From positions 124,001 through 188,000 of the forward strand of contig NW_026251769.1 in assembly GCF_025024155.1 (NCBI RefSeq): a stretch of 64,000 nucleotides of DNA. The letters run 5' to 3'. The number at the start of each line of letters is the position of its first letter. The stretch's first letter is position 1. Made by a program: the position numbers and the translations under genes. The notes below the pieces were generated by a model, which worked only from the letters and a program-made list of their open reading frames with translations, had not been told where the DNA came from and did no database searches. Positions 3,047-32,467 of this stretch are shown piece after piece. Origin of the DNA: Gamsiella multidivaricata (taxonomy: Eukaryota > Mortierellomycota > Mortierellomycetes > Mortierellales > Mortierellaceae).

Positions 3047-5964
3047 ATGTCTGTCGTTGGTACGTATTCTACACCCATATCTTCCTTTCCCAGGCACACC
3101 AACAACAATTATCTTTCCCTCGCTTGCTCTACACTCCAGGACATGCTCTACACCCATGTGAACTAGGCAACTGACACTTGCAATGCTTCTTTTCCTGGCT
3201 CTAGGTATCGATTTCGGAAACTTACAAACAATTATCGCTGTTGCCAGAAACCGTGGTATCGACGTTATCTGCAATGAGGTCTCCAACCGCTTCACACCTG
3301 TAAGTGCCGCTCAGTTCCTTTTTGTTTCGACTTTTTGCTGCCACGATCTCAGTCCGTTGTTTGCTGAAGTAGATTGGACTTGACTGGACTGAGCCGGATT
3401 GGACTGAAAAGTGCTGGACGGAAGGAGAAACACGTTTTGTTCGGTTTGGTTCGACTCGATTCAGTTCGATTTGATCTTTATTCGATCTCTATTCGATCAT
3501 CATTCATGCCGTATCTTCTTATCGGTGCTTCTGTGTCCATTTTGTTTATCCTTTTTCCCTGGGAAGAAAAGAAAAGCACGCAGCAGGCAGGATGCGGGAG
3601 TAAAAGGCGGCCATTCATATGTCAAGGGAATAATGGGTCACTTCTGTAGGGCAGTTCGACTCTGTGCAACAAGCAAACCAAGTCAAAGCTTGTCAAAAAG
3701 TATCCATCAACTAACAAGAAACCTATCCTATTTCTTGAATCAAATAGACGCTCGTCTCGTTCGGACCCAAGCAGCGTTACCTCGGTGAGACCGCCAAGAC
3801 CCAGGAAATCTCCAACTTCAAGAACACCATCTCCTCCCTGAAGCGCCTTGTCGGTCGCACCTTTGCCGACAAGGAGATTCAGGAGATCGAGAAGCACTAC
3901 TTGACCGCCCCTTTGGTCGATGCCAATGGCCAGCTCGCCGTCAAGGTCAATTATCAGGGACAGGAGACAATCTTCACCACTGTTCAAATCTTTGCCATGT
4001 ACCTCACCAAAGTGAAGGAGATTGCCACCGTCGAAACCAAGCTTCCCGTCTCCGACTGCGTTATCGCCATCCCCTCCTGGTTCACAGATATTCAGCGTCG
4101 TGCTGTCTTGGATGCCTCAGAAATCGCTGGACTGAACGTCCTCCGTCTGATCAACGACTCCACCGCCACCGCTCTCGGCTACGGTATCACCAAGACTGAC
4201 CTGCCCGAGGACAAGCCCCGTAACGTTTGCTTTGTCGATGTCGGCCACTCCACCTACACTGTCTCAATTGTTTCGTTCATTAAGGGACAGCTCACTGTCA
4301 AGTCGCGCGCCTTTGACAGGCACTTTGGAGGTCGTGACTTTGACCGCATGTTGGTCGACCACTTTGCTGCAGAGTTCAAGACCAAGTACGGTATTGATGT
4401 CAAGTCCAATGGTAAGGCCATGATCCGCCTGATGGCTGGATGTGAAAAGCTGAAGAAGATGCTCTCCGCCAATGCTGAGGCTCCCCTCAACATCGAGTCT
4501 ATCATGGAGGATCGCGATGTGTCCTCGATGATGAAGCGTACCGAGTTTGAAGAGCTGGCAAAGGACTTGATTTCCCGCTCGGAGGCTCCTCTCCAGAAGG
4601 CTTTGGAGGACGCCGGCTTGTCGAAGGAAGAGATTGATGCTGTTGAAATGGTCGGAGGCTCAATCCGTATTCCCGCCCTCAAGGAACGCATTCAAGCTTT
4701 CTTTGGCAAGGACCTCTCCTCTACTTTGAACCAAGACGAGGCCACTGCTCGTGGAGCTGCCCTTCAGTGCGCCATCTTGTCCCCCTCATTCAAGGTCCGT
4801 GACTTTACCGTTCAGGATATCACTAACTACCCCATCAAGATGACCTGGCAGCCTACCCCTGAGGAGGATGAGACCGAGCTCGTCGTCTTCAACAAGAATA
4901 ACTCGATCCCCTCGACCAAGGTTCTGACCTTCTACCGCTCCGAACCTTTCGATCTCGAGGCCCATTACGCTGAGCCTCAGGATATTCCCGCTGGCATTAA
5001 CCCCTGGATCGGCCGTTTCTCTATCAAGAAGGTTGAGCCTGTCAACGGCGAGCCCGCCTGCGTCAAGGTCAAGGCCAGAATTAACATCCACGGTGTTTTG
5101 ACTGTCGAAAGCGCTTACGTTGTTGAGGAGGTCATCAAGGAGGAGTTGATTGAGGAAAACGCCAATGCCGATACTGAGAACCCTGATGCTCCTTTGACCC
5201 GCAAGGTCAAGAAGCTGGTCAAGAAGGGCGATCTTCCCGTTGTTAGTGCCACCTCTGCTCTTGACCGCGCTATCATCAACGAACTGAGAGAAAAGGAGAT
5301 GGAGATGATTGCCGCGGACAAGCTGGTCGTCGACACTGAGATGGCGAAGAACACGCTGGAGGAGTACATCTACGACACCCGTTCGAAGGTCAATGGTGGC
5401 GTCTACGCGAGCTATATCAACCCCAGTGACAAGGACAAGTTCTTAGAGGACCTGAACAACGCCGAGAACTGGTTGTATGATGAGGGCGACGAGACGACCA
5501 AGTCGGTTTATACTGCCAAGTTGGCTGAGCTCCAGGTTGTCGGTAACCCTGTTATCCACCGCTACCGTGAGGCCGAGGCCCGCCCCGCCGCTGCCCGAGA
5601 GCTCCATGAGACCATCAACAACTTGATGGCCCAGGCCACCAGCACCGAGGAGAGGTACGCACACATCCCTGTGGAGGAGAAGAACAAGATCGTGGAGAAG
5701 TGCTCGAAGGCACAAACATGGATCGAGAACAAGATGGAGCGCCAGTCGATGCTGAAGAAGTACGAGGAACCTGCCTTGACCTCGGCCGATATCCGCAAGC
5801 AGCGCGATGACCTCGTTTACTTTGCCACACCCATCCTCAACAAGCCCAAGCCCAAGCCTGTTGTTGTTGAGACCCCTCCCGAGGCTGCGTCCTCGCCAAA
5901 CCCCGAGCGCAAGACCACTCCTGAGACTAAGGAGGACGATACTAAGGACATGGACATTGACTAA
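3047..5964 (+). CDS. SSE1: HSP110-family chaperone (Sse1/HSPA4-like)
   Basis: Cytosolic HSP110 proteins are nucleotide-exchange factors for HSP70 and hold unfolded clients. Exons are 3047-3059, 3205-3299 and 3748-5964, giving 774 residues, close to the usual HSP110 length. The first exon encodes only MSVV plus one base. The actin-like ATPase begins [18 protein letters not shown], where HSP110 has FGN in place of the HSP70 FGT, and continues with [25 protein letters not shown] and [10 protein letters not shown]. The nucleotide-site loop [14 protein letters not shown] is present. The beta-sandwich and extended acidic/lysine-rich linker (about residues 490-530) and a long helical lid follow. The tail ends in acidic DDTKDMDID. 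The gene is divergent from GCN2, and codon use is strongly biased to C-ending codons, consistent with high expression. Confidence 0.95.
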
Positions 5965-6202
5965 ATCGTTCATGGACAGCCTGTGCCTCTTTCCCCCTTA
6001 CCACCATAGTACATAGTGCTCTTGTATACACCTTTGCTCACTCACCAACCTCATTCATAAAGATATCATCATTGTTTTTTTTTCATTGAAAATGACTGCC
6101 TCACAGGTTATCTTTGATCTTTTGCAGGCAACTCTTGTGCTTCATGAAACAATAGCTTCGTGTGTAACATCAATTGGCGTCGCGATAACTCGTTAGCTAC
6201 GA

Positions 6203-9200
6203 CTATCTTCCTGGGGGCTTGAAACTTGCAAGCATATCCCTCCAACTGAGATCCGTCCACAGTTCCTTGAGCAGCTGGATCGTATTCACGATCGCTCGCA
6301 TCTGGCCAACACCGAGCTCCAAAGGTTCCTGAATCCAGCCGCTGGTCCTCGCACCCAGCACTGGGGATTTTCGAGACCGACCTTTACCAACAAAAGATGA
6401 TTAGTCAACCTATTAGCACTCGTTGCGAAATAACGGTATGCTTGGTGCAACTGGTACTGGTGTTTGTAGAGCAGGTGGACGGCTACGGCGATTGTAACAG
6501 TCGAGAGAAGCATCAGGTATAGATATTTGATCAGAACCTGGAATGGCGCCGAGTGGCCTCTGACCTGCCATTCCCTGGAGTTCGAGATCGCACAAGTCGT
6601 GAACAATTGTTGAGGCTGAGGCTGAGGCTGCTTTGGGAGCTGACAAGCCCTGGTCTGCTCTAGCTCCATATGCAGGGTCTCTAGCTCCTGCCAAGACTCT
6701 TCCAGCCTGTGCTCGAGGACTTGTTTCTCGTGGATTGACAGGACTGCCTCTTGAATTGATGCAAACCCAAACACTTTTTCCTAACAAAGCATCGTATCAA
6801 AGGAAGTTGAAAAAAAAAAAAAAAATGCAAGAGTTGGTCATTAATATTATCAGGGATCATGGGCACTTTCTTTATCTTCTCTTTTTTTCTTCTTTTTTTA
6901 CCTTGATGAGCTCTTGATTCAGTTCTTGCACAGTACACTCCTTTGCTTGTAAGCCTATCTCTGTGTTCTGACATCTCTCCAGCATATCTGCCATTTCTTG
7001 TACCAACTGGTCGATTCGGTTCGTCAGTAAATATTCTTGATCATGTAGACGTGCCGCTGCCTGCTTCCAGTACAAGAGCTGCATCCGTGCCGTCGCCAGC
7101 TCAAGTGTTCTCGGGGAGGTACGTTCGGTCCTTGCTGATAAAAGGCCTGTAGAAATACTGGCTCGAATGGAAGGAGATGCGCAGGTAATGATAGATGATC
7201 GAGGAGGAGGTGACTGATCCAGCAGAGGAGAATCTGGAAGAGGTGGAAGAAGATGATCTGGAGTGAAAGTCTCGATCAAATTCTGAGAAACTGCTCTATT
7301 CTCGATCGACAGTGAACCTGGGAGCGAGATTGGGCTCGACAGATGTCCTGTATCCAAGCTAGAAGCTTCGCACTCAAGGTTCAATATGCCATGTCTGTTT
7401 TTCTTGGAGTAAAACACGAGCTCTGGCTCAAATGCCCGCATTGGTATCCATCCTGGCGAGTTGTTCCCGGACGGCGCCGCATCCTCGTGCTGATTTTCTG
7501 GGCTCGTATTCTCAGACGAGGGTACCTCGAAGCAGGCTATGATCTGAAGGCAAGGGTCGAATTGTACTCGCTTCAGCACAGAGGTGTCGATACTTTCCGT
7601 CGTGACATTTAAAGCACCCAGTATGGCGCTCGTTACCTGCTGCGATGACATCACACATGGATTGTTGATATGAATGTTAAAGCTACTCTCCTCAAAGTTG
7701 GACGCGATCTCATCCTGCTCTCTTTCCTGCTCTAGCTCGCCATAGAGATTCAGTTGTTGTACTCTGTTCCACAACAGCCGCCTCTCGGGCCCTCTTTCCC
7801 TCTCCCCTCCTTGATCCACCTCGGCGCAGATCTGGAGTAGTCGGTCAAAATCGATGTAAATGATACTAGTCTCTTGATCGTCGTCGTCATTTGCGTCGAA
7901 ATGGCACGCCTTGGTCACCGCATCGCGCTCCTGCTCATTCTGATACTCCATCTGCATTAGCTCCGTAGGTACCAAACCCTTGGAGCCAACCATCGAACCT
8001 TGTTGCATCTCGCTATTCAATTTCGCCTTCGACTCGATCCCTAAGACTTTGACACCTTTAGTCTTCAATTGTTCCACATCTTCGAAACTGCCGACGGAGG
8101 CTGATGCTTCCCAATATCGAGTACTCAATGTAGCGGACATGAGTACCGGCGACCCCTCTACCAACTCGTTCCTCTGTTCCTCGGTCATAGGCTCTCGAAA
8201 TCGCAAATATGTAGTGGATTGCGTTGAAATCGATAATACTGATTTTTGTTCCTCGAATCGGTCAATTTTTGCTCTCTCCTTCGCTACTGTGTATCCTCGT
8301 TCCTGGAGATTAGGTAACGGAGCCTCGCTGGACTGGTCACGGTCGTCTTCTTTAGTCAAGTCCAAACTATTTCTATCATTACGAGTTCCGGAGTCGACAG
8401 TACTGTATTGGCAATAGAACTAGTGTCCTCTGTGTCCGTGCTTGTGAAGGAAAGAGTGTCAAATGACTGTGATGATCCGAGATCTAGAAATACACTCCTG
8501 GGCAACTTGCTGCCATAGCTCTCTTCTTCACCATCATCACTGCTGTCATGGTTGTAAATAGGTGACGGTAGATCATCATATCTTTCAGAATCATCCAGCT
8601 GATCCGTATCTCCAGCAATGTCATGATGCTTTAAAGTCTCCAAGTTGCTCACGCTTGCTGTGGCGGCGAGTAAACTTAGGATAGGTCGGAAGAAGGAGCC
8701 CTTGGACAAAGACTGGTTGGTATGGGGCGGTCCGGTGTGGCCGCTCAATTTTGAAAACGCTCTTTGGTTATGCTGTGTGGATAGTTGTGGATTCGCTTCT
8801 GCACTGACTCGAGACTGGTTATGAAACTGCTGTTGCTCCTCCAATTGATAGTAATGACTCTGATCTGAGGCGAGTGGTGCAGCTGTGGAAGATGAGGATG
8901 CCAATCCGATTCGAGTGCAGGATGGAGAAAGGTAGGCACCAGATGTGAAGAAATGGTTGAAAGGACCAGCAGAGGCCGGCTGACGTACTTTTTGTTGCGA
9001 CTGTTGCCGCCGCTGCTGTTGATGTTGGTGACAGTGGTCATCCTGGCTCGCGACCGAATCGTCATGCCTCTGGATATAACTCATCCGTGTCGTAACCGCT
9101 GCTGAATCCATTGCGTTATTGGCGGCGGTATCAAGTACATCTTCTAGATCCTTTTGCTGTTCACCTACTCCTATTACATTCACGCAGCTGCAGGCGGTTG

Positions 9201-17015: not shown

Positions 17016-18551
17016 GAAAAAGAGATAAAAGTGGGCTTATGAATATTACTTACCTTGATAGCTTTGTTGCTGTCTTGCGCCCAGTTTTATCCAGTCGATC
17101 CTGTAGGAGACATCAGATTAAGAGGTGATGGTGAAGCTGAAGCGAAAGAAGAGAACGCCTCCTTTTATAACCCCCTGGAACAAGTCACTCCCAATTGACC
17201 GTGGTGGGATCCTCGTTTTTCTAATTGCACACAGTAGCCACAGTTAGGCCTTGAAGGATTAGCAAAGGCAGTTGAAATTGGCGGTCACGTTCTGCCTATC
17301 CGTATGATATCCAGGGTGCAATAGCAAGCAATGGGTGCTTCAATCCACCCTCCTTGGACTCCAGATGGAGTTTTTCTACGATAATTTCCTCCGGTCAAGG
17401 CAGGGCTCATTTCCAGGCACAGACACTTGTTTAGGTTAAGGATCTTCCCACCAACTCTGCTCAGCACGACCTAAACGCAGATCGGCCTATGAGCATGAGA
17501 GCAAATAGGAGTATGAAACTTAACCACATCAACAAAATAAGATTGAACCGCACACAACGTGTCTATTATATTTCTGCAAAGGTCAATACTTAGCGTAATA
17601 TGTGCATGCATTCATTACTATTAATACCATTATTCGCCTCTACCAATAAGTTCTACATGTGTTTCTCATAGCAGTATCCAAAGTGTTAATTATGGGCAAC
17701 ATTTCCTGCATAGAACGCCTTGCTCAATGGTCTGTACAAGGGGGACGTGGTTCGATAAAAAAAATATATATCCGCTCCCTGCTGCGGTGTGATAATGTAG
17801 GCCCGAGAATTAAGAGGACGAGAAGCCCGAAGATGACAACAACGTCACTCCAACACACTTTGGATCATGCAGGGCATCAGACGGAGTGACACAAGGGAGG
17901 AACCACCACCAGCGAGAAAGAGTCAGGAAACCATATAAAGCAGACCTTAAAGGTAAACAATGTTGCACAGAGAAGACCAACCTCACTCCGTGCTATCAGT
18001 AGAGAAGACCGAGAGGGCGAGGAGGAAAATACCACTGAAGCGCAGGGGCTAATGATAGGAAGGAGATCGTCTCTTCTCTTACTAGACGATACGTGTCAAA
18101 GTTAGCCGTGGTAGAGTATACTTCTTGACAGTGACGGTATTTGCACCATTCGGGTCATAAATTTTGCTGACCTCCCCATATGTTTTCCCATAATTGAATA
18201 AGAGTGATATATTTTAGAATAGATAAAATAGGGAGGTCGGCCATATCCTTTGACCCCAACTCAAATAGGACCATATTATGCATCCATTCGCACAATACCA
18301 TGGACCATAACTCTGTTTCCACCAATAGACCAAGAGACAACGGAGAAGGGGCTTCCACAAGTGCCTCTTTCTCCTCTTTCTCTGTCAATGGAGTCGACAT
18401 TGCACATGCTGGTCAAGGTGATGGTATGCTCTGACATTAGCCAGCTGAAACGCTACTCATCACATCGATCGACAACACCAACTTACTATTCCTTCTTCGT
18501 TTCCACCGGTCGTATATTCATGTATATAGCCGCTGCCACTTCGTGCCAGGC
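17016..18551. other. Mostly non-coding; one orphan exon-like segment
   Basis: The - strand at 17054-17100 has a good acceptor (TCCTACAG) and donor (AAGGTAAGT) bracketing 47 bases that read DRLDKTGRKTATKLS in one frame. It may be an internal exon of an unrecognised gene transcribed leftward across the repeat island. Other open frames here lack support. Confidence 0.25.
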
Positions 18552-18939
18552 TTTCGAAGACTCAGTAGACACGCCAGACTACGCCTATGCATATAGCGAT
18601 GTACTCGAGGGATCGTCTGGCAATATCTATGTAGAGCGCGACGACCCGACGTTTGCTGAACGCGTTGATCAAGAAGACGACATGGACGACGATACGACAG
18701 ATGAGGATATAGGCTACGGCTTAGACGACGTCGATGGCACCAGTGTTGCAATGAGTGACGAAGAGGAGTGTCGGGAACAACTGCTGGATAGGCGTAGCAA
18801 GAGAAAGGCGGAACAAGCACCAGAGAAGGCGCGACCTGCTCGCAGGAGGGCAACAATGGAATCCGGCGACCAGACTGCACAGCAAGTCCACATTCACTTC
18901 CAGGGCCTCCGTCCAGCAATACCCCTTTTCTGCCCCTAA
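18552..18939 (+). CDS. Hypothetical acidic protein fragment
   Basis: An open frame with strong composition bias follows an acceptor-like TTCGTGCCAG. It reads AFEDSVDTPDYAYAYSDV, an acidic block (EDDMDDDTTDEDIGYG), then a basic block (DRRSKRKAEQAPEKARPARR) and ends FQGLRPAIPLFCP. No family is recognised. The start and earlier exons are not clear, and an overlapping - strand frame at 18900-19190 also looks partly coding, so the true model may differ or the locus may be decayed. Confidence 0.3.
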
Positions 18940-20391
18940 GGCCTTCAGCACAATCAGCTCCTCCAAGGCCATTATGGTCAAGCAGCACAGGTTGATTTTT
19001 TTGCTTCTCACCCTCAAGTTCGCGTACTGCCTTCTCGATGGACTTGCTGGGAGGTCCTGCCGTGATCGAGTGCTGCTTTTTGTGTTCCCCTCCAATTTGA
19101 GCCCGCGTCCTAGCTGCTTTTTGGCTTCTTGGAATGCTTGGTACTCATCCTGCTGTATAGGGGGTTTAACAACGAGCTTTGTAACTTCTATTATTAGTTC
19201 TATTTACAACAGGGGACGCCGCGCGATTAGGACTTCGGCGAGGGCGTGCTTCGGTCATTTACTGGTTCGCGGTGCAGGGTCCTCCTTTAGATCGGAATGA
19301 ATTGACACAAAGGTAAAATAGACTAGACAGAGATAGAAGGAAATAAATATAGGGAGTTGTTTGGCTAAATGGTTCGAGCTAGGACTATGTTCCATTGAGA
19401 ATGACTGAGGTAGTTACAAGGTATTCACATATATGATGTCCGATGAAGTGAGAAGTCGTGACAATGAAGTCCACCCCTCTCAGGAGTCGTTGTATGGCAA
19501 TGTTCGCTGATTAGGCCTCCATTGTACCTTTATAATACCGTTTCACGAGGGTAAGCCGATGATGAATGTTCAATAATGAGACGATCGGAAATCGGGGAAA
19601 CGTTGCAATTGATAGTGCAAAGGTGGCGAATGATCAGGCTTGGCATTCTCTGTTGATTGTATCTCGTTGCGTGGGTTGCTGACGACGGCAGTCAGTACCT
19701 GTCGATGATGCGGTGTTATCCGGACAATCTGAACGAATGCATACAAGATATATATGTGAAGAAGACTCTGGTTCAGGAACCAGACCGTTTATTCTTTTAT
19801 TCTGGGAGCGGTGCTCTTCCCCGTAATTTAATAGCAAAAGTTCTCATAGGCTTGAAGGTTGACCGCGCTACTTGACTGATTTCCCTATCCTCCATTGCAT
19901 CCCTAGCGACCTATCGAGATTTGCGCCTACCTGCGTATGTTGAAAACAGCTATGATGGCGATGTGGGTGGACATCTGTGTCAGGCCGTGGCAAAGCTACT
20001 CGTATATCACTGATCGTGCTTCGTGTCAAGCAACTAGCATCTATCAGTGTAATGGCTCTTTATCAAAGCCTTTTGTTATTGTGGTAATGCCTTTCTTTAT
20101 TGTGGAAAGTCTTTTTTATTACGGAAAGTCTTTTTTATTGTGGGAAAGCAGACATTGCTTCTCGCCTATAAGTATTCTGCCACACTCTTCACAGCTCTCT
20201 TCGTTCATCATCCTTTCTCCTCATCGCTCTTTGCCCGCAGTTCGCTATCCATATACATCTTCACGCTAGATACTATACGCCTGTAGAAAAGGCAATGTAC
20301 CCTCCAAGCCTATCCTTCCATATCTTCAGCGTCCTTACGAAAGGGTTTCACTAACACTGCTAAGCTTTCAACCCACCATAGTGATCGCAGC
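18940..20391. other. Intergenic, no supported gene
   Basis: Open frames are short and on conflicting strands. The only structure I see is the tandem repeat at 20076-20150 just upstream of the XPG-like gene. Confidence 0.4.
20076..20150. repeat. Four imperfect TTTATTGTGGAAAGTCTT units
   Basis: TTTATTGTGGTAATGCCTTTC, TTTATTGTGGAAAGTCTTTT, TTTATTACGGAAAGTCTTTT and TTTATTGTGGGAAAGC follow one another about 240 bases before the XPG-like start codon. This is a small tandem array that could sit in the promoter or at the edge of the mobile module. Confidence 0.7.
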
Positions 20392-21710
20392 ATGGGCATA
20401 AGAGGCCTTTACAGTACTCTGAAGAAGCGCGGTTTGGATCCAGTTGCCGCGGATCCTCAAGATTACCAGAACCAAGCTGTTGAGGTTGACCTCTTCGGCG
20501 CGTTTTATGGATCCCTCGTTCGCCAGATCACGGATGATTACGATCCAAGCAAGGTCCGAGCTGTCGGTCTCACGATGGCAGCGCGTTTGGCGAAGGACTT
20601 TACCCCTGCGCAATGTACGATTCACATCGATGGCGCCCCATCCCAACAGAAGCGGAGTGAGCACATCAGGCGAAAGAACAGACTGACAGCGGACCTCAAG
20701 AAGTTGCAGGCGAACTTGAAAGTCATGAGCACGAAGTCGTCGAACGGCCAATGGACCTCGAAGAGCGTGGTAACGAAGATCAAGAAGGGCCTCCGCGATG
20801 TATACAGATTTGATGCAGCAGCCAAGCAGACACTCCGGGATGCCTTACGAGAAAAGGGGTTTTCTGTCTGCACTTGCAGGACCGAGGCCGACACCTGCAT
20901 TGCACGCACACTGACCATGGCAGCCGGTAGCTTCGTGGTGTCAGCAGATTCTAATCTGTTGATATATCTGTCGGTCACCAAGATTTTGCGGCCGATCTTC
21001 CACGGCCTGGCCTATGCATTGTACACCAAGGAGAGTGTTACCAATGCACTTCACGTTCCCAGCGCAGACTATGTGACGTTGCTGGGCATCGTGTCCAAGA
21101 ACGACTATACCGAGAACATTCCCGGCCTTGGAATAGTTCGCAATCTGGAGATCATCCGCGCTCTATCCCAGTCGCCCGATATCAGCTATATGTTCGATGC
21201 TTACAGATTCATGGCAGCCATCAAAACCCACGAGGTTACCAACCAGAGCCGATTCAAGCCATCGGAAGACATCTTTTTGGATCTCGAGGAGAAAGTGCTC
21301 CAACTGCAGCCAGGAGATGAGGCCGCCGATGAGGACATGCTCGGCTTTGATTTCAACAGTGCAGCACCGCAGTTCCGGCACCTCGAGCTGCAGCGATTTG
21401 CCGTCGCTGCATATCAGCATGCGAGTAGAAGGTAATTTAAGTGTGACACCACTTCATTCACACACGCGTTGTACAGATATCAAGTTCTCTAACACCTTTT
21501 GCATGGCGATGTATGCGTACATTTACTAGTGCGGTTCCCTTCTACGTTGCGAGGAACTCAAAGCGGAACCAGTTCCGGTCGATCTTTTCAGACAAGAAAT
21601 CAATCCTACCACGACAATCGATTGACTTCTCGACTGTCGTACCTCACGATCGCCCACAGCCAAAAGCAAAGCCCCCCGTCAAGACTCGGAAGGCGGTCCT
21701 GAAGAATTAG
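20392..21710 (+). CDS. FEN1/XPG-like (PIN-fold) nuclease domain, N-terminal half of an XPG-Fanzor module
   Basis: Exons 20392-21431 and 21530-21710 encode 406 residues ending at a TAG. The start MGIRGLYSTLKKRG matches the XPG-N signature, where the free amino-terminal Gly-Ile/Val-x-Gly forms part of the active site. Acidic residues follow in family order: Asp33 in VEVDLFGAF, Asp in HIDGAPSQQ, Glu-Ala-Asp in CRTEADTC, and SADSNLLIY where FEN1 has DxD, then KNDYTENIPGLG as the helix-hairpin loop. The second Asp of the DxD pair is Asn here. FEN1/XPG enzymes cut branched DNA; the role here is inferred. The linker after residue 347 is basic. After the TAG the same frame stays open into a lysine-rich stretch and the Fanzor region, so this may be half of a larger protein. 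Confidence 0.8.
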
Positions 21711-24252
21711 AACAAAAAAAGGAGGAAGAAGGAGGCACTGCCGAGAAAACGGAAAGGGGTGGGCTCTGCCGACCCATCGAACCCACGACCCACTTCTGCA
21801 ACTGCAGCGGACCGTCGCCTCCGCAAGCTGCATATAACCAAGGCACTCACTGTGGGGAGTGTCCAGGCCAACATAAAGCGAATGGATCAGATCTCGGTTG
21901 CAGAAAGCAGGTTCCTTTCAGACAGGCTACGTTCAACGGTTGCGATCCTTAACGCGATCCAGATGAATATGTACGAGGCTATTGCACTGGATATCGCGCG
22001 GCTTGTTCGTTCCAAGGACACAGCGACAGATGTGACACAGCGGAAGGAGGATATTGCAGACATTCTCGACAGCAAGGCCTTCTACTTTGCACTCAACACA
22101 CTCTTGTGCAGTGGTCAAGAAGGACGAGGTTCTCAGGCTGTTCGAGTATCGGTTGCTCCTGCGCGCAGGATGAGCACTCGAAATGCGCCGTTGGTCCCTG
22201 GCGTCCCGCAACCGCAAGCACAGGCACAACCACAACCACAACCACAACCAACAGCCACCCATGCCCGACGTGTCTTTGATGCATACACGACGCTCACCGG
22301 CTTTGTCCCCTTTCGCCAACGAGAACCAGAGATGTTCCCTTCGACGGTCTCGAGGCTTGCTGTTGCGGCGGTCTACAATGCAGTGCGAGTCCATTACTAT
22401 GGCGCAAAGATATATTAAAGAGTGTGCAAGATGTATCCGTTGTGTTCCTTGCTTTTCGGAGTACTAGTGTCGACCATTAGCTCTTCAAATTTCTTTAATA
22501 GTTTTCCGAGAACGAAGAGCGCCCCGAAGCTGTCAATCCAATCGACTACTTCTTCGAAAAGAATACCGAGAAGCGCATGTTTGCAGACTTTGTCAAGGCA
22601 AAGTTCGCAGCTGGCTTCGTGTTCTTGTCAGAGGCGGACCTTGTCTATTTATTCTATACAAGCAATACGACACGGCCAATTATAGTCCGAATGCTGAGCG
22701 ATACAACATCCAACGCTGCGGAAGCCAAGGTCGTCGGCAAGAAAGGATCCTCATCGAAAAGCTGCTATACAGACTGGACTCGGCGACGCGCTTTGACGGG
22801 TATTACAGGAAGGTTTCGATTCAGAGTGACAGACAGCACCACACAAGGTTCAAGCTTCGGGGCATCATCTGCACGAACGGACTGGTGTTGCATCTTCTTG
22901 CGCATGACACAACGACAACGCGACGCCGAACACCCCGCCAAAGCATCAGGGGCGATGACGACGATGAAGAAGAACACGACGACAACGACAACGATGGCGA
23001 CGGCGACGAGGATGTGACCCTGTTCCACGATGTTGACGGTGACTATGACCTCGACGACGCGTTTCTTGAAAGTGGAGGGGACGAATCTGGTACAGATCCG
23101 GTCGCAGCTGCGGCAGGACCCGCCAAGAAGGAACGCATCACGCTCCCGTCTTCGACGCCAGAAAGTTCAAAGCGGCGGAGGCTGTCGATACACCAACTGC
23201 CATCCACAGACCCTACTGCGACTGCTTCGTCCTCATCCAGCTCAGAAGCCCCATCTGGTCCAACGTCAGGCGCAGATACGATCGATGTCACACGCAACAC
23301 CATCAACTGGAAGCGAAGTTCAAAGATCCTAGAAAACGTGGAGGTGCGCTTCAACTCTCCTGGCACTTGTCCACCAGGCGATACTGTGGTCATCGGCATT
23401 GACCCGGGCGAGGTCTACACAATGACAGCGACAAGAATCGACTCCGCCCTACCTACGAAAAGAGAGTCTTTACGAATCTGCAGGGCATTCCTCTACAGGC
23501 CTTACATGCTCTTCAAGCGTCTCCTAGAAAAGCAGAAGGCCGCGGCACGCATTGATGTTCTTGAGGCAAGCCTGCCCTCATTTACCGTGGAGAAGATCGA
23601 GGAATACCTGGCGTATCTGGAGGCGCCTGGCACGGATGGCACCGCCGCGACCGCCACGAGAGTCCGCCTTTTTAACTTTTACAACAGTCAGTGGATGCTA
23701 AGGAAGCGCTGGGATCTTCAAAAGGCTCAACAGGCAACGTATGACTACGCAGTTGCGGCCTTGCTTGACCTCGTCGTCAGCAAGGACTTTGTTGGTCAGC
23801 CGCTGAGCTCGCAGGATGGTGTAAAAGTGGTGTTTGCAATAGGATTGGGCTCTTTTGATTCGCAAACTGGCCTGTCAAGCAAGCATAGCGCACTCGAGAA
23901 GAAATTTGTCGGCAAGGTAAGAAGAAGGAAAAAAAAAAAAAAAAGGGTGGCATACCATCTCTCATCCGCACTGCAACTTTTTCTCATCTGTTTATTTGGT
24001 CCTTGATGCTGCTGATAGGCAAAGGCTATGGGACACACTGTGGTCGGGGCGCACGAGTACTACACCAGTGCTCGGTGCCCTCGTGACCAGTGTATGGCGT
24101 TCTTGGAGTCCGACAAGAGGCGGTCAAAGTACTGCCGAAGCTGTCAAATGTACTTTGATCGCGATATTGTCGGCTCTGAGAACATTGCCACCATGTGTCT
24201 GTCGCAAATTCAGAACCAGTGCCGGCCTGCCAAGTTCATGCCATCAACATAA
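21711..24252 (+). pseudogene. Fanzor (eukaryotic TnpB-like) RuvC nuclease, frame interrupted
   Basis: Coding segments are 21711-22415 (same frame as the XPG part, closed by TAA at 22416), 22502-22650, 22645-23916 and, after a clear GTAAG...GATAG intron, 24019-24252. The first carries a nuclear-localisation-like KKRRKKEALPRKRKG. The third has RKVSIQSD and FKLRGIICTNGLVLHLLA, resembling the Fanzor wedge-like region. The RuvC fold follows: VVIGIDPGEVYTM (Asp codon at 23401), LFNFYNSQWMLRKRWDLQKA, VFAIGLGSF, then AHEYYTSARCP (Glu codon at 24055, the alternative catalytic Glu of Fanzors), a zinc ribbon CPRDQC...CRSC and YFDRDIVGSENIA (Asp codon at 24163). All three RuvC acidic positions are kept. 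An intron 22383-22501 could bypass the TAA in phase. The frame change near 22640 remains unexplained, so it may be recently broken. Confidence 0.7.
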
Positions 24253-25904
24253 TCATAGGGGGCTGGAACCCTCTTTCAAAAAATAACGTGCATGAACACC
24301 CAACCCATTCCGAATTCTAACCAGCCACTTTTTTACTTGATTTGGGTGATTTCTGGTAGACAGATACTGTACAATCAAACGTTCAAGTTATAGGTCAGGT
24401 CTTGCGGCTCCTATGAGGAAGATGTTGTACAACGGAATGTCCATGTCATAAGAGTCCACGAAAGACGCCATAGATCTTGCCTCGGTCAGTCTTAACGGGG
24501 GGCTTTTGTGCATCGACCTTACGGACCCCATTCGTCCATACACTCTACAAACATGCGCGTACGATGATGAGCAATATCATTCATCGCACACTGAGCTGCA
24601 TCGAGTGGACAAAAATAAAATGAACGCCTAGTTTCTAGGCCATGCCAACTACATGCTAAACAGAAACTAGAAAATCAATCCCATGTGTAGCCTATACTAT
24701 GAATCAAAATAATGCCGATCCGGAGACCATTAAAATGAGTCCTTCGCCAGCTAAAGTAATGACCGACTTCCAATCATACCCGGCTACCATGATTAAACGA
24801 GGATGCTGTTGTCGTTGCTGCTGTCTACTACGGGCAGTCCGGAGTGTTACTCATTATAGTATATACTCTTAGTCCTAGTATTCATGACATCTGACCCGTT
24901 TAATCGGCACAGATGGATGGCAAAGGAACGCGCACCGCCCAGTCTTCCTGTTATAGTACATTGCGACGGATCGATGGATAGCTTTTTTTATGAATAACTT
25001 TATTGGCAATTGCCTACTGTTTTGCAACGGAAAGTTGCTTATAAGTGCGCAGCCTGTCCACTTCAAGGCTACCAGAAGATGTACATGCAAGTGCTAAGGC
25101 AGCGCCAACTGCGGAGTCGGATATTGCAAACAGATATAAGGGAACTGTACATTTATCACATATGCCGTTTTTGCTAAATAATCGCACTGGAGAAATTGGT
25201 ATCCGACTGAGCAAACGGACAGTGGGATTGACGACAAGTATATGGAAGCGGCGTGGCACTCTAACAATGCATCACTTTTTAGTTTCTTACTTCGCTAGCT
25301 AACATTTGCTTTCATAACTGTTCTACAGGAAAGTTCGTGTCATGTTCGAGAGGATATACCCCAATGCATTGCGATACATGGCATGTTTAGATCTTACATC
25401 ATTAGCAGCGTGCGAAGCGGCAAGTAAATGGTCAAGGCGATGACAAGGCACGCGTCTTCTACGCCCGAAAACGCGTCTCTGTCCTCGACACCCAGACGCC
25501 TATCTTATAGAACCCTACGTTCTCATTCTCATTGGAACACGGACCGACTACGTTCCAGCGTTTAACGTATCCCAGGTAAACCGTTCAAGCTTCACGCTCA
25601 ATCCAAACGAGGAGCAGCAGTGCTTATTTAGCCTTTATAATAAACGATGAAACTATTGTTGCTTTTTGAACGGAAAACATTTACAACGTTTTAGAATGGG
25701 CCTGTTGGTGAGCCTTTGCCTGCAATATCTGTTATCCGGTCTGCACAAAGACGCACGCAGATGGGTCAATGCGAATGTTATCTATCGTTGAACCTTACTT
25801 CTTGCAACATTTGATTTACTCTCTCTTTTCGACATTCCAACTCCTCATTCTGCCCTTGCACACTCGATTCATTCTCATTCCACTCAGCAAAAGACAAAAA
25901 CCAA
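24253..25904. other. Intergenic; 3' flank of the Fanzor region
   Basis: No gene is supported across 1.65 kb. In known Fanzor loci the guide (omega) RNA lies at or beyond the 3' end of the nuclease gene, so 24253-24600 is where one would be sought. I see no clear terminal inverted repeat by eye. Final bases before 25905 are CT/CA-rich, like the leaders of other genes here. Confidence 0.35.
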
Positions 25905-27467
25905 ATGACGCGCGTCAACCTCGATGGACTACAATCATTCTACGCGTTGAGTAATGCGCGTCAAATCCCTCTTCTCGGTCTCGGGGTCTACCTCATAGAG
26001 CCGGGCAAAGCAACCGAGGACGCCGTCCTCTGGGCACTGCAGGCATGCATCGTTTTATCATCTATCTCCACTGCACACTCCGTTTCATACCCCACTTTAC
26101 ATTTTATCCACCATACCGCAATTTGCTGAAAAGAAGATACGACGGACTTACAGGCTATCATTCCTTCTCTCCCTCTTCCCTTGACGGACATCTTCGCATG
26201 ATGTCCATCTATTACTAGGCAGGATATCGTCATATCGACACGGCATCCATGTACCGCAATGAAGTCAGCGTTGGCAACGCTATCCGAAAGAGGTAAACCT
26301 GCTTTTGCTGTTTCCTATGTTGGTTTACTCCATTGGGTAGTGTTGGAAACAAGCTCTTTTGTAACATCCTTTGACAACCGGTGCCAAACCCCCTCTCCCC
26401 CCATAATAGTGGTATCCCTAGAGACCAGATCTTCGTTACAACCAAGCTGTATGACCATGACCAGGGCTTCGAATCCGCTATTTCGGCGTGCGAACTCTCT
26501 CTGGAGAAACTCGGCTTGGACTATATCGGTAAGATAAGGGCAAAGGCGTATTTGTATTTTATTTCTCATGCAATAATTGCTGGGCACACTGACATTGAAA
26601 TTGTCGAACACGCTGTTTTTGAATGTAGATCTGTATCTTATCCACTCGCCTAACCCTGGACCGGAGCGTCGCAATGATTCTTGGAAGGCGCTGCAGAAGC
26701 TGGTTGCCCTGGGCAAGGTTAAAAGCATAGGTATGCAAAAAACATAGCGATGGTGGATCAATTGTTACTGAGAGTAATGTTGTCTATTTTCCCCCTATGA
26801 CTTCATGCGAGCATTCTGTCTAACCCCTATTTCTCTTTCTCCAGGCGTCTCGAACTATGGAGTGCATCATCTGAAGGAACTGTTGGGGTCTAATCCGACG
26901 ATTCGACCAGTTGTCAATCAGATCGAGGTAAGTTCTCAAAGGAACCAGACATGTTGGGGAAATGACAGCACGAGTGTCCTTTCCCACATTTTCGTCGCAT
27001 CAAAACAAACGGAATCTGATTATATGCTTTTCCCTTATCCACGGTTCGAGTAGGTGCATCCGTGGCTCACCCGCGAGGAAATTGTCTCGTTTTGTGAGTC
27101 TCAGCATATCGCGGTTGAGGCCTACAGTCCTCTCAGTCGTGGACACAAACTGGAGGATCCAATGCTGGGTAAGATTGCAGCAAAGTACTCAAAGTCACCA
27201 GCACAAGTACTGGTCCGCTGGAGTCTTCAAAAGGGATACATTGTCCTACCCAAGAGTGCTCACAAGGACAGAATCGAGCAAAATGCGGATGTGTTCGATT
27301 TCGATCTGGCAGATGGAGATATGAATGTGATGGATTCTTTCAACGAGGGCTATGTTTCTGGTAGGTTTTTAATCTGTTTTAAGAAGGAAACATGTCCATG
27401 GCAGTGCTTGTCTGCTCACATTTTTCTTTGCATATCCTTAGGTTGGGATCCGACTGTTGCGCCTTAG
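25905..27467 (+). CDS. Aldo/keto reductase (AKR family)
   Basis: Seven exons (25905-26042, 26219-26292, 26410-26528, 26629-26730, 26845-26927, 27054-27360, 27442-27467) join in phase to 282 residues, slightly short for an AKR. It is predicted to reduce carbonyls with NADPH in the cytosol. The catalytic tetrad is visible: Asp and Tyr in [15 protein letters not shown], Lys in [10 protein letters not shown] and His in [12 protein letters not shown]. Later motifs are [33 protein letters not shown] and the cofactor-site [19 protein letters not shown]. Intron 1 appears to be GC-AG: the junction must fall at WALQ|AGYRHID, where the genome has CAG|GCATGC. The gene sits between the two XPG-Fanzor copies and looks intact. 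Confidence 0.93.
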
Positions 27468-28379: not shown

Positions 28380-31300
28380 GTCTTGCATCGGCACCGCGAT
28401 GCATATATGTCTTGCACGTTGAACAATAAAGCCGGCGGATGTTGACCTGACCAACAAAATCCTCAGTTCGGACACTTTTTCGAGGTGTAATACTTATTTA
28501 TGCCTAACAATGTAACCAGGCGATCTGGCCTAGAGAGAAGCAGAAACAAAATCATCGGGCACTTAAGACAGTTGCCAATCTGCCTGTATTCCTCGCCTCG
28601 CGCCCTTCTTGCGTACCACTTGTGTTTTTTCGAGGACCATGTTGCGGTTATAAAAGGAATCGAGGTGGACCTCCACATTCTTAAACTTGTCAACGTAGTC
28701 TTTAATGCTTGATCCAAAGCCGCGTAGGGGGGGAGGGGGGTAAGTTGCTTTCGATGCTGCTGACAGATGTCGAGTCGTAGTTTGATTTGTCCTTCCTTTG
28801 TTCTATCCAATGTCGACGTTTTAGTGTGGGCTGATAGACCGCCTTTTGCTTAACAGCAAGGTTATAGAACTTGGCGACCTTTTTCTCACCAGATGGTTTA
28901 TTGACCGCAATATTCGTCCCTGCTCCTTTGTCCAGCTTGGGCCTCTCATGACTGGGCAACAAGGCGCTCGCTTCTATCACAAATGCTTGTCCTAGATCTA
29001 GACCTAAATGCTTGCCCTTGATCCAGACCTAAACTCTTGATCTGCTTGGGATCACATTCTCAAAGATAGACGTCCTGTTTAATCTTCAATACATTCCTAA
29101 ACTCGGTCAATAAATAATCCGCGCTGCCGAGAGTAGAAGTGATGCGAGGAGGTAGCTTAGCCTCGGGAGGCTGTCTGTACTTGTCCGTATTGAGTTCGTT
29201 CAGCTTGAATGCTAACAGCTGGAGCCGAAACTCATCCGTCCGAAGTGAGCCGTGTGCCATACTTCATACATTCGTAATTTAGTTTAGCAAGGCATGTATG
29301 ATGCGATAACCCGCCAGGACAACTATAAAATAGGTGTCCTGGCGGGACCATTAAAGATCCCTCTCTTGTCTCGTTATTTGTTTTCCACTGGTAAAACCTT
29401 ACTTTATTGCAAGCTGCATAGAGCATAACCGCGTCCCTTGTAAGAGCTGAATGCCTCCAATGTGCTGTCTTATCTTATCAAGCAGTGCCATCAAGGTCGT
29501 CGTGTGATACTTTATGAATCTTTTCTATCCCTCTGGCGTATATCTTCCAATGTCGGTGACCAGCTTGGTAATGAAATGTTAAGGTGTCATTTTCGAGGGC
29601 CAATACGACACGTCCACCCGCGCGATATTTTCGGTGCTTGGGAAATCTGGCTTGGCATAGTTTTGAAGTAGCTTTCGCAAGGCCACACCTTGCCAAAAGA
29701 TCTTGGTCAGCTCCAACTCCGAAAGAGATACGAAGATGTCTTCAAAGGGGGTTAGCGGAGCCAGCCTCCGACCACTCATGCAGACCCTGTCTAGAGGAAT
29801 AAAGTTCTCGATTGCTGAAATACCGTGATCAATGCTACCTAATGCATCTGCAGACAAAAGAAGACCCTTTGTCATACAAGCCTTGATCTATTTTGAAAAG
29901 GATGGGCGATGTCAGCAAGACCTTCCTTGACACACTTTGGCGCTGATTGAAGCTACATGTCGGTACCTTCTCACAAAGATCTTTTGAGCCATTGCAGTAA
30001 TGATTCTTTAACTCGACCGAAAGCTGTGTGGCAGTAGATCTCAGAACAGTGGGTCCTGAATATGACATCTTTGTCCCGTCCTTGGTTATGGCTGGCAAGA
30101 ATTTCTTGGCTTTCTCGATGAACCGAAGGACATGGGACCCCGACTCCAAATTGGAGGGGAGTTTGGAGTTGTAGATGCACACAAAAAGCGAGAATAGGAA
30201 TCCCAATTGCTCATTTTTCGTGTCAATCTTGCCGTCGTGCATATCAAGTTCTTAGAGTCCTTGAACAGCCTTATCGGGGTCGTTGTTACTGGCATCATCC
30301 TTGGAGACGCGGAGGCAGAGTTTGTCGAGCAAGATTCTGTCTGTCTCATTGATGCCGGTGGTTGAAAGGCGTCCAATGTGCTGACCAATAGCTCTCTGGT
30401 AGGTACGTTTGGCTTGGGACACGTGGCAAATAGCTTATTGGAGGCAGGTCTCGATCTTTGGCAACAACTCGGATGCCTTGGACTGTTGAAACTCCTTGTT
30501 CAGTGCTCACATAACGTTGACATTAATGGTTCCGACATCGAGTGTCCTCGTTGGATGTCCCTACTGCATAAATATGACCAGATCCGCTTTTCTCTTGTCC
30601 TCCAGCGGTTTTGGACTCACTATCGACGTGTCCTTCTTTTTCTTTTTTTTTTGGGACGCTGGTGTCGCTTTCCAAGGGATTCTCCGGCGGCTCCTTACAT
30701 GGCTTCCACACGTGCTTCTTCAATATGTCCGGTGGTTCGTGCTGAATCATTCGAGACCGCGTCTTGAATGAGAAGAGCTTCTGACACTTGTATTTCCTTC
30801 CAGAGCCGTGAGCAGATGACTGCTGATCAGGAAGACGTCCTCCTCTGGCCTGTAAAACTGGTAGCCTAAAAAAGTTGCAAACATTTATATTAGTTGATTG
30901 CCGCTTTCTTTTTTTTTTAAAAAAAAAAATGCTCAATCGACAAAACTAGCCTATTACCTTGTCTCTGCAAGGAGTAGTTGTCGCTCGACCTTTCTCTTTT
31001 CCAGCAACTCACAGAGAAGACGCCGTCTTTGCATTACATCCTCAACGGTCGCGAGTGTTTGTGTGGAGGTCTGAAGAAATGTAGAGGCTTGCCAACTGCT
31101 CTGTTGTCGATGCATGAAAATTCTCAGAGGTACGGAAGTGCTCGCTGGTCACATTCTTGCTAAGTACTTGACCATGGTCTCCGCATCTGTCAAAAGAATG
31201 AAAAATCATCATCAGAACATATCGCAAGCGTCGTCAAACATATCGTTGGGCATGCTGTTCTTCAAGCACCTGATACTTCTAGTGATTTGATTGGTAATGA

Positions 31301-31810
31301 TTCCAAGTGATGCAGCCGTAGTCGTTTTTAGAAATTGTACAGAGCACAGTAAGATGCACCCTGGAGATACGAAGGCTCCCCAACACACTCGGAGCGTCGT
31401 ACACCAGGAACTTCCTTCTCGATATGGGTCTCCAGATGGTCGTAGTTGTGTCGTAAGCAAGCATATCGCTGTCGGTTGATAGGATTATGTCGTTGGGTTG
31501 GCAGTCGTGAGCAATCACAACGTCAGTAGGACATTCTATGACGTTCCATTCTATGCTGCACATGTATTAAGCAAAACCTTTGCGGAAGTCCACGGACCAG
31601 TAGAAGAAGGCTGTGTTGAAATGAAGTTTCCGCACTTTGTGTATGTCCCTCACGTGTTCTTCTATGTCGCCGATGCATTTCTGGGCGAGCTGGAGAGCAC
31701 CGACACGACGCTTTTGCAAGTCTGTTATTTTTCATCTGGCGAAGGACCATCCAGATAAAGGACTGAGCTCTTTGGGGTCCCAGACTCCGATATCGCTTAT
31801 TCAAGGGCGG
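28380..31810 (-). pseudogene. Decayed XPG-Fanzor copy
   Basis: Read on the - strand from 31810 downward. An XPG-I-like part (31042-31800) has DIILSTDSDMLAYDTTTTIW and LTVLCTISKNDYG, parallel to SADSNLLIY and LLGIVSKNDYT of the 20-kb copy, but with stops and no MGI start. A continuous linker frame (30523-30936) follows. A degenerate Fanzor part ends the module: TDEFRLQLLAFKLNEL (29060-29260), LDLGQAFVIEASALLP with the RuvC-I Asp (about 28990), NLAVKQKAVYQPTLKRRHWI (28800-28870), LLGINKYYTSKKCPN at 28463, then after a TGA and frame change FVGQVNIRRLYCSTCKTYMH. Glu is Lys in NKYYTS and HRD has become HRG, so the RuvC site is dead. Many frameshifts and stops make it a fossil. Confidence 0.75.
28983..29032. 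repeat. 25-base tandem duplication over the RuvC-I motif
   Basis: TGCTTGTCCTAGATCTAGAC and TGCTTGCCCTTGATCCAGAC, each followed by CTAAA, lie side by side in the decayed Fanzor copy. They duplicate the segment that encodes GLDLGQAF on the - strand. Confidence 0.7.
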
Positions 31811-32467
31811 TGTGAGCGTTAGGCAAGGGATGAGTTGTGTAGGTATAGTGAATAAGAGGATAAAATGTAGACCGTTGACACGAAGTGTGGGTGGTGGTTA
31901 ATGGAGATAGAGGGCTGGGCGACCTAGGGACACTGAGAGCAGACAATGGCCTCGTATCCAAGCTTTCGAATTAAGGGCTATAGACCTACAATACCCACCG
32001 CTGACGTTTACAAGATGAATAAGGAAGGTGGCCAAGATGGGGCTAAGCAAGCATCAAAGGATGTACAGCGAATTGTGTTGAGGAGTAAAATGAGAGTGAA
32101 GGAGTGCGTGAAACACATGGCGCCTTTATTTTTTAAACGATAATGACACCCCAAGTAAATGGTTGATCAGACTCAAGACTAACTGCGGGTGGACTGTTCC
32201 ATCGTAGAATCCAACACATAATACCCAACAAGGCTTTATTTCTCAAAAAAGAAAACATGTAATCCACGCTACGGTTGTTATATTACACGACCAGAGGCGC
32301 GATACCCGAGATGAACAGCCGGGTGGAGTGCCTGATACGAATTTCTCCTGGCATTGAGCCTGATGTAGCACATCGCGCCACGAAGCATTCACTGACCTTT
32401 ATCTAAAGGAACATTCAGAAAAGACCTACAATTAGTACACAGATCGACTAAAATTACACCGGAGCAA
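31811..32467. other. Region between the decayed XPG copy and the snoRNA introns
   Basis: No protein gene is supported. The - strand at 32467 follows a strong acceptor (TTTCTCTCCCCAG), so the part just below may be the last exon of the snoRNA host transcript. Its 3' end cannot be placed. Confidence 0.35.

Follow-up and report, generated by a model that had tools for sequence, protein, structure and literature searches.

The window analysed here is a 64,000-nucleotide stretch of the fungus Gamsiella multidivaricata (contig NW_026251769.1, positions 124,001 to 188,000 of the forward strand; all positions below count from its first letter). Around 20392-24252 it carries what we read as a decayed copy of a mobile element, with one gene in which two nucleases are fused: a Rad2/FEN1-type (XPG) nuclease and a Fanzor, an RNA-guided nuclease, which may divide the work of cutting DNA between them. 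Taken as a whole, mechanism included, this reading has in our estimate a probability of about 0.6. The gene itself is predicted with very little doubt: it almost certainly encodes a single protein, in which a low-complexity linker connects an N-terminal Rad2/FEN1-type nuclease to a C-terminal Fanzor. Judged from the predicted proteins, this XPG-Fanzor domain architecture is real across Mortierellaceae, and it is undescribed in the literature searchable here.

Gene structure at the window locus

Translation of the window gives an XPG-like open reading frame (ORF) at 20392-21432 and Fanzor ORFs at 22468-24003 and 24019-24252. The Fanzor motifs of this copy are GIDPG (Asp 23401-23403), HEYYTS (Glu 24055-24057), CPRDQC...CRSC and FDRD. 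ORF and motifs lie where an earlier sequence-only reading of this DNA had put them. That reading had described a FEN1/Rad2-type nuclease joined to a Fanzor as two neighbouring genes of a mobile module. The nuclease pair and its mobile-element-like repetition hold, while the two genes become one: four exons and three introns emerge from an alignment of ten close copies (Table 1). The agreement in frame over the first 700 bases, which had also been pointed out, is a coincidence, as the true joining passes through exon 2 and introns separate the four exons.

Then why does the window locus resemble two ORFs? The reason is that this copy is broken. A stop at 21707-21709 in the frame of exon 2 is found in the window copy and in copy C171 only, and is absent from the 8 other aligned copies, several of which have frame breaks elsewhere. 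Only the window copy has lost the intron-2 donor at 22410; the 9 other aligned copies keep the GT. Exon 3 of the window copy has a one-base frameshift near 22744, and in its XPG half Asn stands in place of one conserved Asp. Judged by its sequence, the copy in the window is a pseudogene.

Elsewhere in the genome the frame runs across both halves. About 1,175 codons are in one frame in copy C166, with one stop, and L060, a divergent locus, has a 483-codon ORF within one exon that spans the junction. The same order of blocks as in L060 was judged by eye in L052, L053, L057, L058 and L061, while L059 and L062 form a more distant group. Four subfamily models retain both sets of active-site residues; their identity to the first model is 37-42%, and that of the window's group is 24%.

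Table 1. Predicted features of the XPG-Fanzor element and of a second copy in the window
Feature	Position	Strand	Basis or remark
Whole element copy	18127..24371	+	about 6.2 kb; compared with other copies; left end from C171, C25, C142 and C166; right end sharp
Exon 1, Rad2/FEN1-type (XPG) nuclease half	20392..21431	+	splice as in annotated P0001; family profile to Rad2/EXO1/FEN1
Intron 1	21432..21529	+	splice as annotated for P0001 and P0004
Exon 2, a single frame with XPG tail, linker and N-terminal part of the Fanzor	21530..22409	+	P0004 crosses the junction
Intron 2	22410..22501	+	predicted from frames and GT..AG
Exon 3, Fanzor REC/RuvC part, RuvC-I Asp 23401-23403	22502..23916	+	
Intron 3	23917..24018	+	predicted from frames and GT..AG
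Exon 4, shifted RuvC Glu (24055-24057), zinc ribbon, RuvC-III Asp (24163-24165)	24019..24252	+	PF07282 E 8.4e-9
Conserved 3' terminus of element	24355..24371	+	among 16 right-end loci, 10 exact and 5 with at most 3 mismatches
Second, decayed XPG-Fanzor copy of another subfamily	28395..31897	-	ORF pieces; similarity to L052

Fused proteins across Mortierellaceae

Proteins were searched with two queries, the alignment of the four models and the Fanzor half of protein P0007, and in each search scoring was confined to the approximately 8,000 candidates with the most words in common. They returned 37 and 91 proteins, respectively. The halves were assigned in 123 proteins with profiles built from these same proteins; 68 of them carry both halves, with the XPG half first and the linker present in all 68, and 2 carry neither. 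Among the fused proteins, 39 start with M and have a length of at least 1,100 amino acids. The sequence-only reading would have failed if no homologue had both domains in one protein or in adjacent genes, but proteins with both domains do exist. PF00867 and PF07282 occur together in a single protein in 2 of the 37 when precomputed matches are taken.

The 68 fused proteins span nine genera: Gryganskiella, Entomortierella, Mortierella, Podila, Linnemannia, Haplosporangium, Benniella, Dissophora and Actinomortierella. Gamsiella is a tenth by DNA, no single annotated Gamsiella protein having both halves. All 91 proteins from the P0007 search are named from Mortierellaceae genera, and family membership was confirmed for Haplosporangium, Benniella and Actinomortierella. 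Have the two halves evolved together? The distances of one half correlate with those of the other (r 0.73; n = 32), a value reached in 0 of 999 permutations, among proteins down to about 20% identity. By this measure the halves co-diverge.

Some single matches are of a different kind. P0030 from Apophysomyces sp. BC1034 (Mucorales) is the sole match outside Mortierellaceae; it is partial, lies on a 2-kb contig, and could be a contaminant or a transfer. Fanzor-family sequence is joined by gene models to a PF20147 domain, which we take to be the Crinkler N-terminal domain, in P0120 (Linnemannia hyalina), and to a NACHT/WD-repeat protein in P0041 (Entomortierella parvispora), through insertion or an annotation effect. 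A spread in viruses was considered and dropped, as none of 5 pattern matches in viral contigs was confirmed.

Identity of the two halves

For the XPG half, Pfam on the window sequence alone gives XPG_N only at E 0.074, and the assignment is secure only with the family profile. Columns 23-282 of that profile match Rad2 4q0r at E 5.2e-8, together with EXO1, FEN1 and XPG chains; an alignment led by the window protein is weaker (Rad2 1.8e-6). The NCBIfam flap endonuclease model fen_arch is found in 4/4 fused proteins at E 3.6e-7 to 4.8e-4, below its curated cut-off. When the element profile was compared with four host XPG-family loci, L001 scored best (38.5 bits) and the others at most 12.4.

Residue conservation was read from a 39-row alignment, counting only the rows with a residue at, or reaching, the site. 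Seven acidic positions of the XPG half are kept in 32/33, 35/36, 35/37, 36/37, 36/37, 36/37 and 34/35 rows, and these residues and the following NDY..G region align with Rad2/XPG, EXO1 and FEN1. In the Fanzor half, the RuvC triad (D-E-D, with the Glu shifted) is kept in 17/17, 14/14 and 13/13 rows, and the zinc cysteines in 14/14, 11/14, 13/13 and 12/13. Strict patterns on the 68 fused models find all three XPG motifs in 39 and both motif sets in 19; the aligned counts are preferred, because strict patterns and cut gene models lower the pattern counts. Both active sites are conserved as far as these alignments predict them.

PF07282 (TNB), which the window zinc ribbon matches, is above cut-off in 7/7 fused proteins. 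The published Fanzor motif D-X(125,275)-[TS][TS]XX-C4-X(5,50)-RD (PMC3627910) agrees with the family: its zinc part is present in 51 of the 123 proteins by pattern, and 13 measured spacings are 205-266. Columns 961-1139 of the family profile match the TnpB-like L79 (E 1.6e-4), and NCBIfam guided_TnpB is matched by 4/4 fused proteins at E 2.8e-9 to 5.8e-8, below its curated cut-off. A crude ratio of nonsynonymous to synonymous change (dN/dS) against C166, from single-step codon changes in nine related and partly decayed copies and thus only a guide, is 0.38 for the XPG core and 0.42 and 0.40 for the Fanzor.

Pairing in the genome

Is the pair at the window locus a chance neighbourhood? To judge from the whole G. 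multidivaricata genome (37.5 Mb, 180 contigs), it is not. The search gave at least 93 matches to the XPG half and at least 84 to a Fanzor piece, the counts being lower bounds; 11 of the XPG rows and 6 of the Fanzor rows, further pieces of loci already counted, were left out of the pairing. At 45 of 82 XPG-half places a Fanzor half lies downstream on the same strand, 383-5260 bp away, which rules out chance neighbours. The pairing is seen at 13 of 14 copies of at least 79% identity, versus 32 of 68 divergent copies (those 32 at 23-39% identity). At the sensitivity of both searches, 37 XPG places and 33 Fanzor places are unpaired. The reverse order or strand within about 6 kb occurs in six rows; in five the Fanzor place is already paired elsewhere, and the sixth is C50. 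The XPG-Fanzor pair is, on these counts, a repeated and old association.

The window holds a second copy (Table 1), with its XPG piece at 31566-31282, linker at 30945-30526 and RuvC piece at 29028-28705 of the minus strand. Its zinc-ribbon piece ends at 28466, and Lys stands at the shifted Glu position.

Ends of the element and its derivatives

The right end is uniform. The 15 loci that keep its last 17 bases exactly or nearly so (Table 1) have 14 different flanks; the count excludes a match in C50, far from its hit, and a 17th match is a second piece of C142. Left ends are ragged. Those of the window, C171, C166, C25 and C142 lie near 18126-18139, a second cluster near 19149-19167 comprises C175, C115b, C126 and C99, with C175 and C115b sharing their left flank, and further copies first match at 19131 (C115a), 19291 (C135), 19432 (C1) and 19532 (C27). 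No clear terminal inverted repeat (TIR) was seen on looking for terminal repeats at the element ends, and inspection by eye of those copies in which both ends are present showed no target-site duplication (TSD). Of 8 left ends read, 3 (C171, C25 and C99) are directly preceded by TACTGT, and the element terminates in TACTGTA.

The copy in C99 (L071) is without the coding part: it consists of 19167-20190, about 170 unmatched bases and 24297-24371, with an exact 3' end. It could be a non-autonomous or ghost element. It is similar to the ghost loci without a Fanzor that PMC10432273 describes, and this likeness suggests movement in trans; a deletion after insertion is also possible.

In the window, the right flank at 24372-26500 has 100% identity to C171:129889-132017 along its 2,129 bases, although the two element copies agree at 97% and their left flanks are different. 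Either an assembly join or recombination within the element would account for this.

What carries the element? Among the ORFs scanned inside it, including three ORFs of the 5' region without a Pfam family, there is no transposase family. Genome-wide, transposases were tested through the MULE and Helitron domains only. Of 11 MULE matches only one (C93:674932) is near a listed XPG-Fanzor locus, and 0 of 11 Helitron matches lie within 5 kb of one; carriage by either was rejected. In L052 a MULE-like transposase ORF (5805-7690, plus strand; E 7e-4) adjoins an XPG-Fanzor copy in divergent orientation.

Possible mechanism and alternatives

How might two nucleases on one chain work together? On the model of TnpB and Fanzor, the proposed guide RNA would be made across the 3' end of the element; its part that reads into the flank would be the guide, and its start would lie near 24355..24371. 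It would direct the Fanzor half to a matching empty or allelic site and open an R-loop, where the RuvC centre would cut. The tethered Rad2-type half would then cut the resulting branched DNA, an R-loop junction or flap, as a second cut or to trim an end, and copying the element back in would repair the break or end. Bubbles, flaps and R-loops are substrates that Rad2/XPG enzymes cut. Because the R-loop of a Fanzor would be such a substrate, a tethered Rad2-type nuclease may well fit the second cut or end trimming. This division of labour, with the Fanzor cutting by guide RNA and the Rad2-type half cutting branched DNA, is tentative, and we hold it at somewhat less than even odds.

Several results weigh against the fused two-nuclease reading and should be noted. 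Beyond the zinc ribbon, a Fanzor-only alignment finds nothing significant in PDB (best LaTranC, E 0.0079). Of 7 fused proteins, one exceeds the curated cut-off of Pfam XPG_I and 4 others are listed beneath it, and XPG_N is unlisted. No Gamsiella copy examined is fully intact. At the 3' end, four folds give no RNA fold signal against shuffles (z -0.79 to 0.00), and Rfam has no match. The dN/dS of tail and linker, 0.85, is near neutral, which fits a tether but also a dispensable stretch. Finally, 32 of the 123 proteins have the Fanzor half only, many still with the linker, and 21 the XPG half only.

Could these be two separate proteins, or a precursor that is cut apart, so that the fusion is an effect of gene models or transcripts on close neighbours? 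This would fit the 53/123 proteins with one half only, the weakly constrained linker, and the stop between the halves in the window copy, which is annotated as XPG-only (P0001). However, a single exon crosses the junction in L060, C166 has a continuous frame, the 68 fused proteins were annotated independently, 39 of them long and starting with M, and the halves co-diverge; we consider separate proteins very improbable. That the XPG half is catalytically dead, and only binds DNA structures or regulates, is likewise improbable. In favour of this are the strong divergence of the half, the Asn that takes the place of one catalytic Asp in the window copy, and isolated departures, each at one position, in a few other proteins; but 95-97% of the rows with a residue keep the acidic positions, in proteins down to about 20% identity. 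More weight is due to an explanation in which the Rad2-type half is the element's own nuclease for excision and insertion. It would replace a transposase by cutting branched or folded ends, and the Fanzor half would only secure retention of a copy at the empty site. The scanned ORFs inside the element offer no other transposase domain, the MULE and Helitron domains do not track the loci, and the internally deleted C99 copy retains both end regions, all of which is as this explanation would have it. Against it, neither a TIR nor a terminal fold was found at the ends as a substrate, and FEN1-type enzymes are not known as transposases; on balance we think it unlikely, if worth keeping in view. 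Quite unlikely, too, is a bolder form of the two-nuclease reading, a self-sufficient RNA-guided transposition enzyme on a single chain, in which guide RNA and Fanzor would pick and open the site and the Rad2-type half would cut the R-loop or element-end junctions with no separate transposase.

PMC10432273 calls the biological role of Fanzors unknown. Their fusion to a structure-specific repair nuclease throughout a clade gives a direct and testable hint at the DNA intermediate which a Fanzor produces or requires. Provided that both halves are active, the protein would be an RNA-guided enzyme with two nucleases tethered by nature, and as such interesting for genome-editing research.

Comparison with known systems

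An XPG-Fanzor fusion was not found in the searchable open literature; an earlier mention is possible, since much subscription and preprint work lies outside that scope. The terms 'XPG' and 'Mortierella/Mortierell' have counts of zero in PMC3627910, PMC10711439, PMC10432273 and PMC11423790.

The following comparisons with published Fanzors refer to the accessible parts of the papers cited. The element protein is like Fanzor1 (SpuFz1, GtFz1, PpFz1) in its C-terminal motif, its shifted RuvC Glu and its being borne by a transposable element in a fungus (PMC3627910, PMC10432273, PMC11423790), and the window copy also in the DPG motif. It differs in that its N-terminal part is a complete second nuclease, XPG being unmentioned for Fanzor1 in those parts of the three papers. 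The extra domain of PpFz1 is FRI, which lies within RuvC and binds cyclophilin, unlike the N-terminal XPG half (PMC3627910, PMC10432273, PMC11423790). Spu-1 elements have inverted repeats, whereas none is clear in the Gamsiella element.

A closer parallel in layout may be the MCi-2 Fanzor family of Mucor circinelloides, compared by description only, which has a common 3' part, variable 5' regions and no TIR (PMC3627910). It differs by TSDs of 11-12 bp, where none was seen in the Gamsiella element, and its description, in the accessible text, has no mention of an XPG domain (PMC3627910).

With respect to Rad2/XPG, EXO1 and FEN1, the element half is only remotely similar and is part of a mobile-element fusion. 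In TnpB of IS200/IS605 and IS607 the RuvC/zinc-ribbon half is alike, but the Gamsiella element is without tnpA and instead has a fused Rad2-type nuclease.

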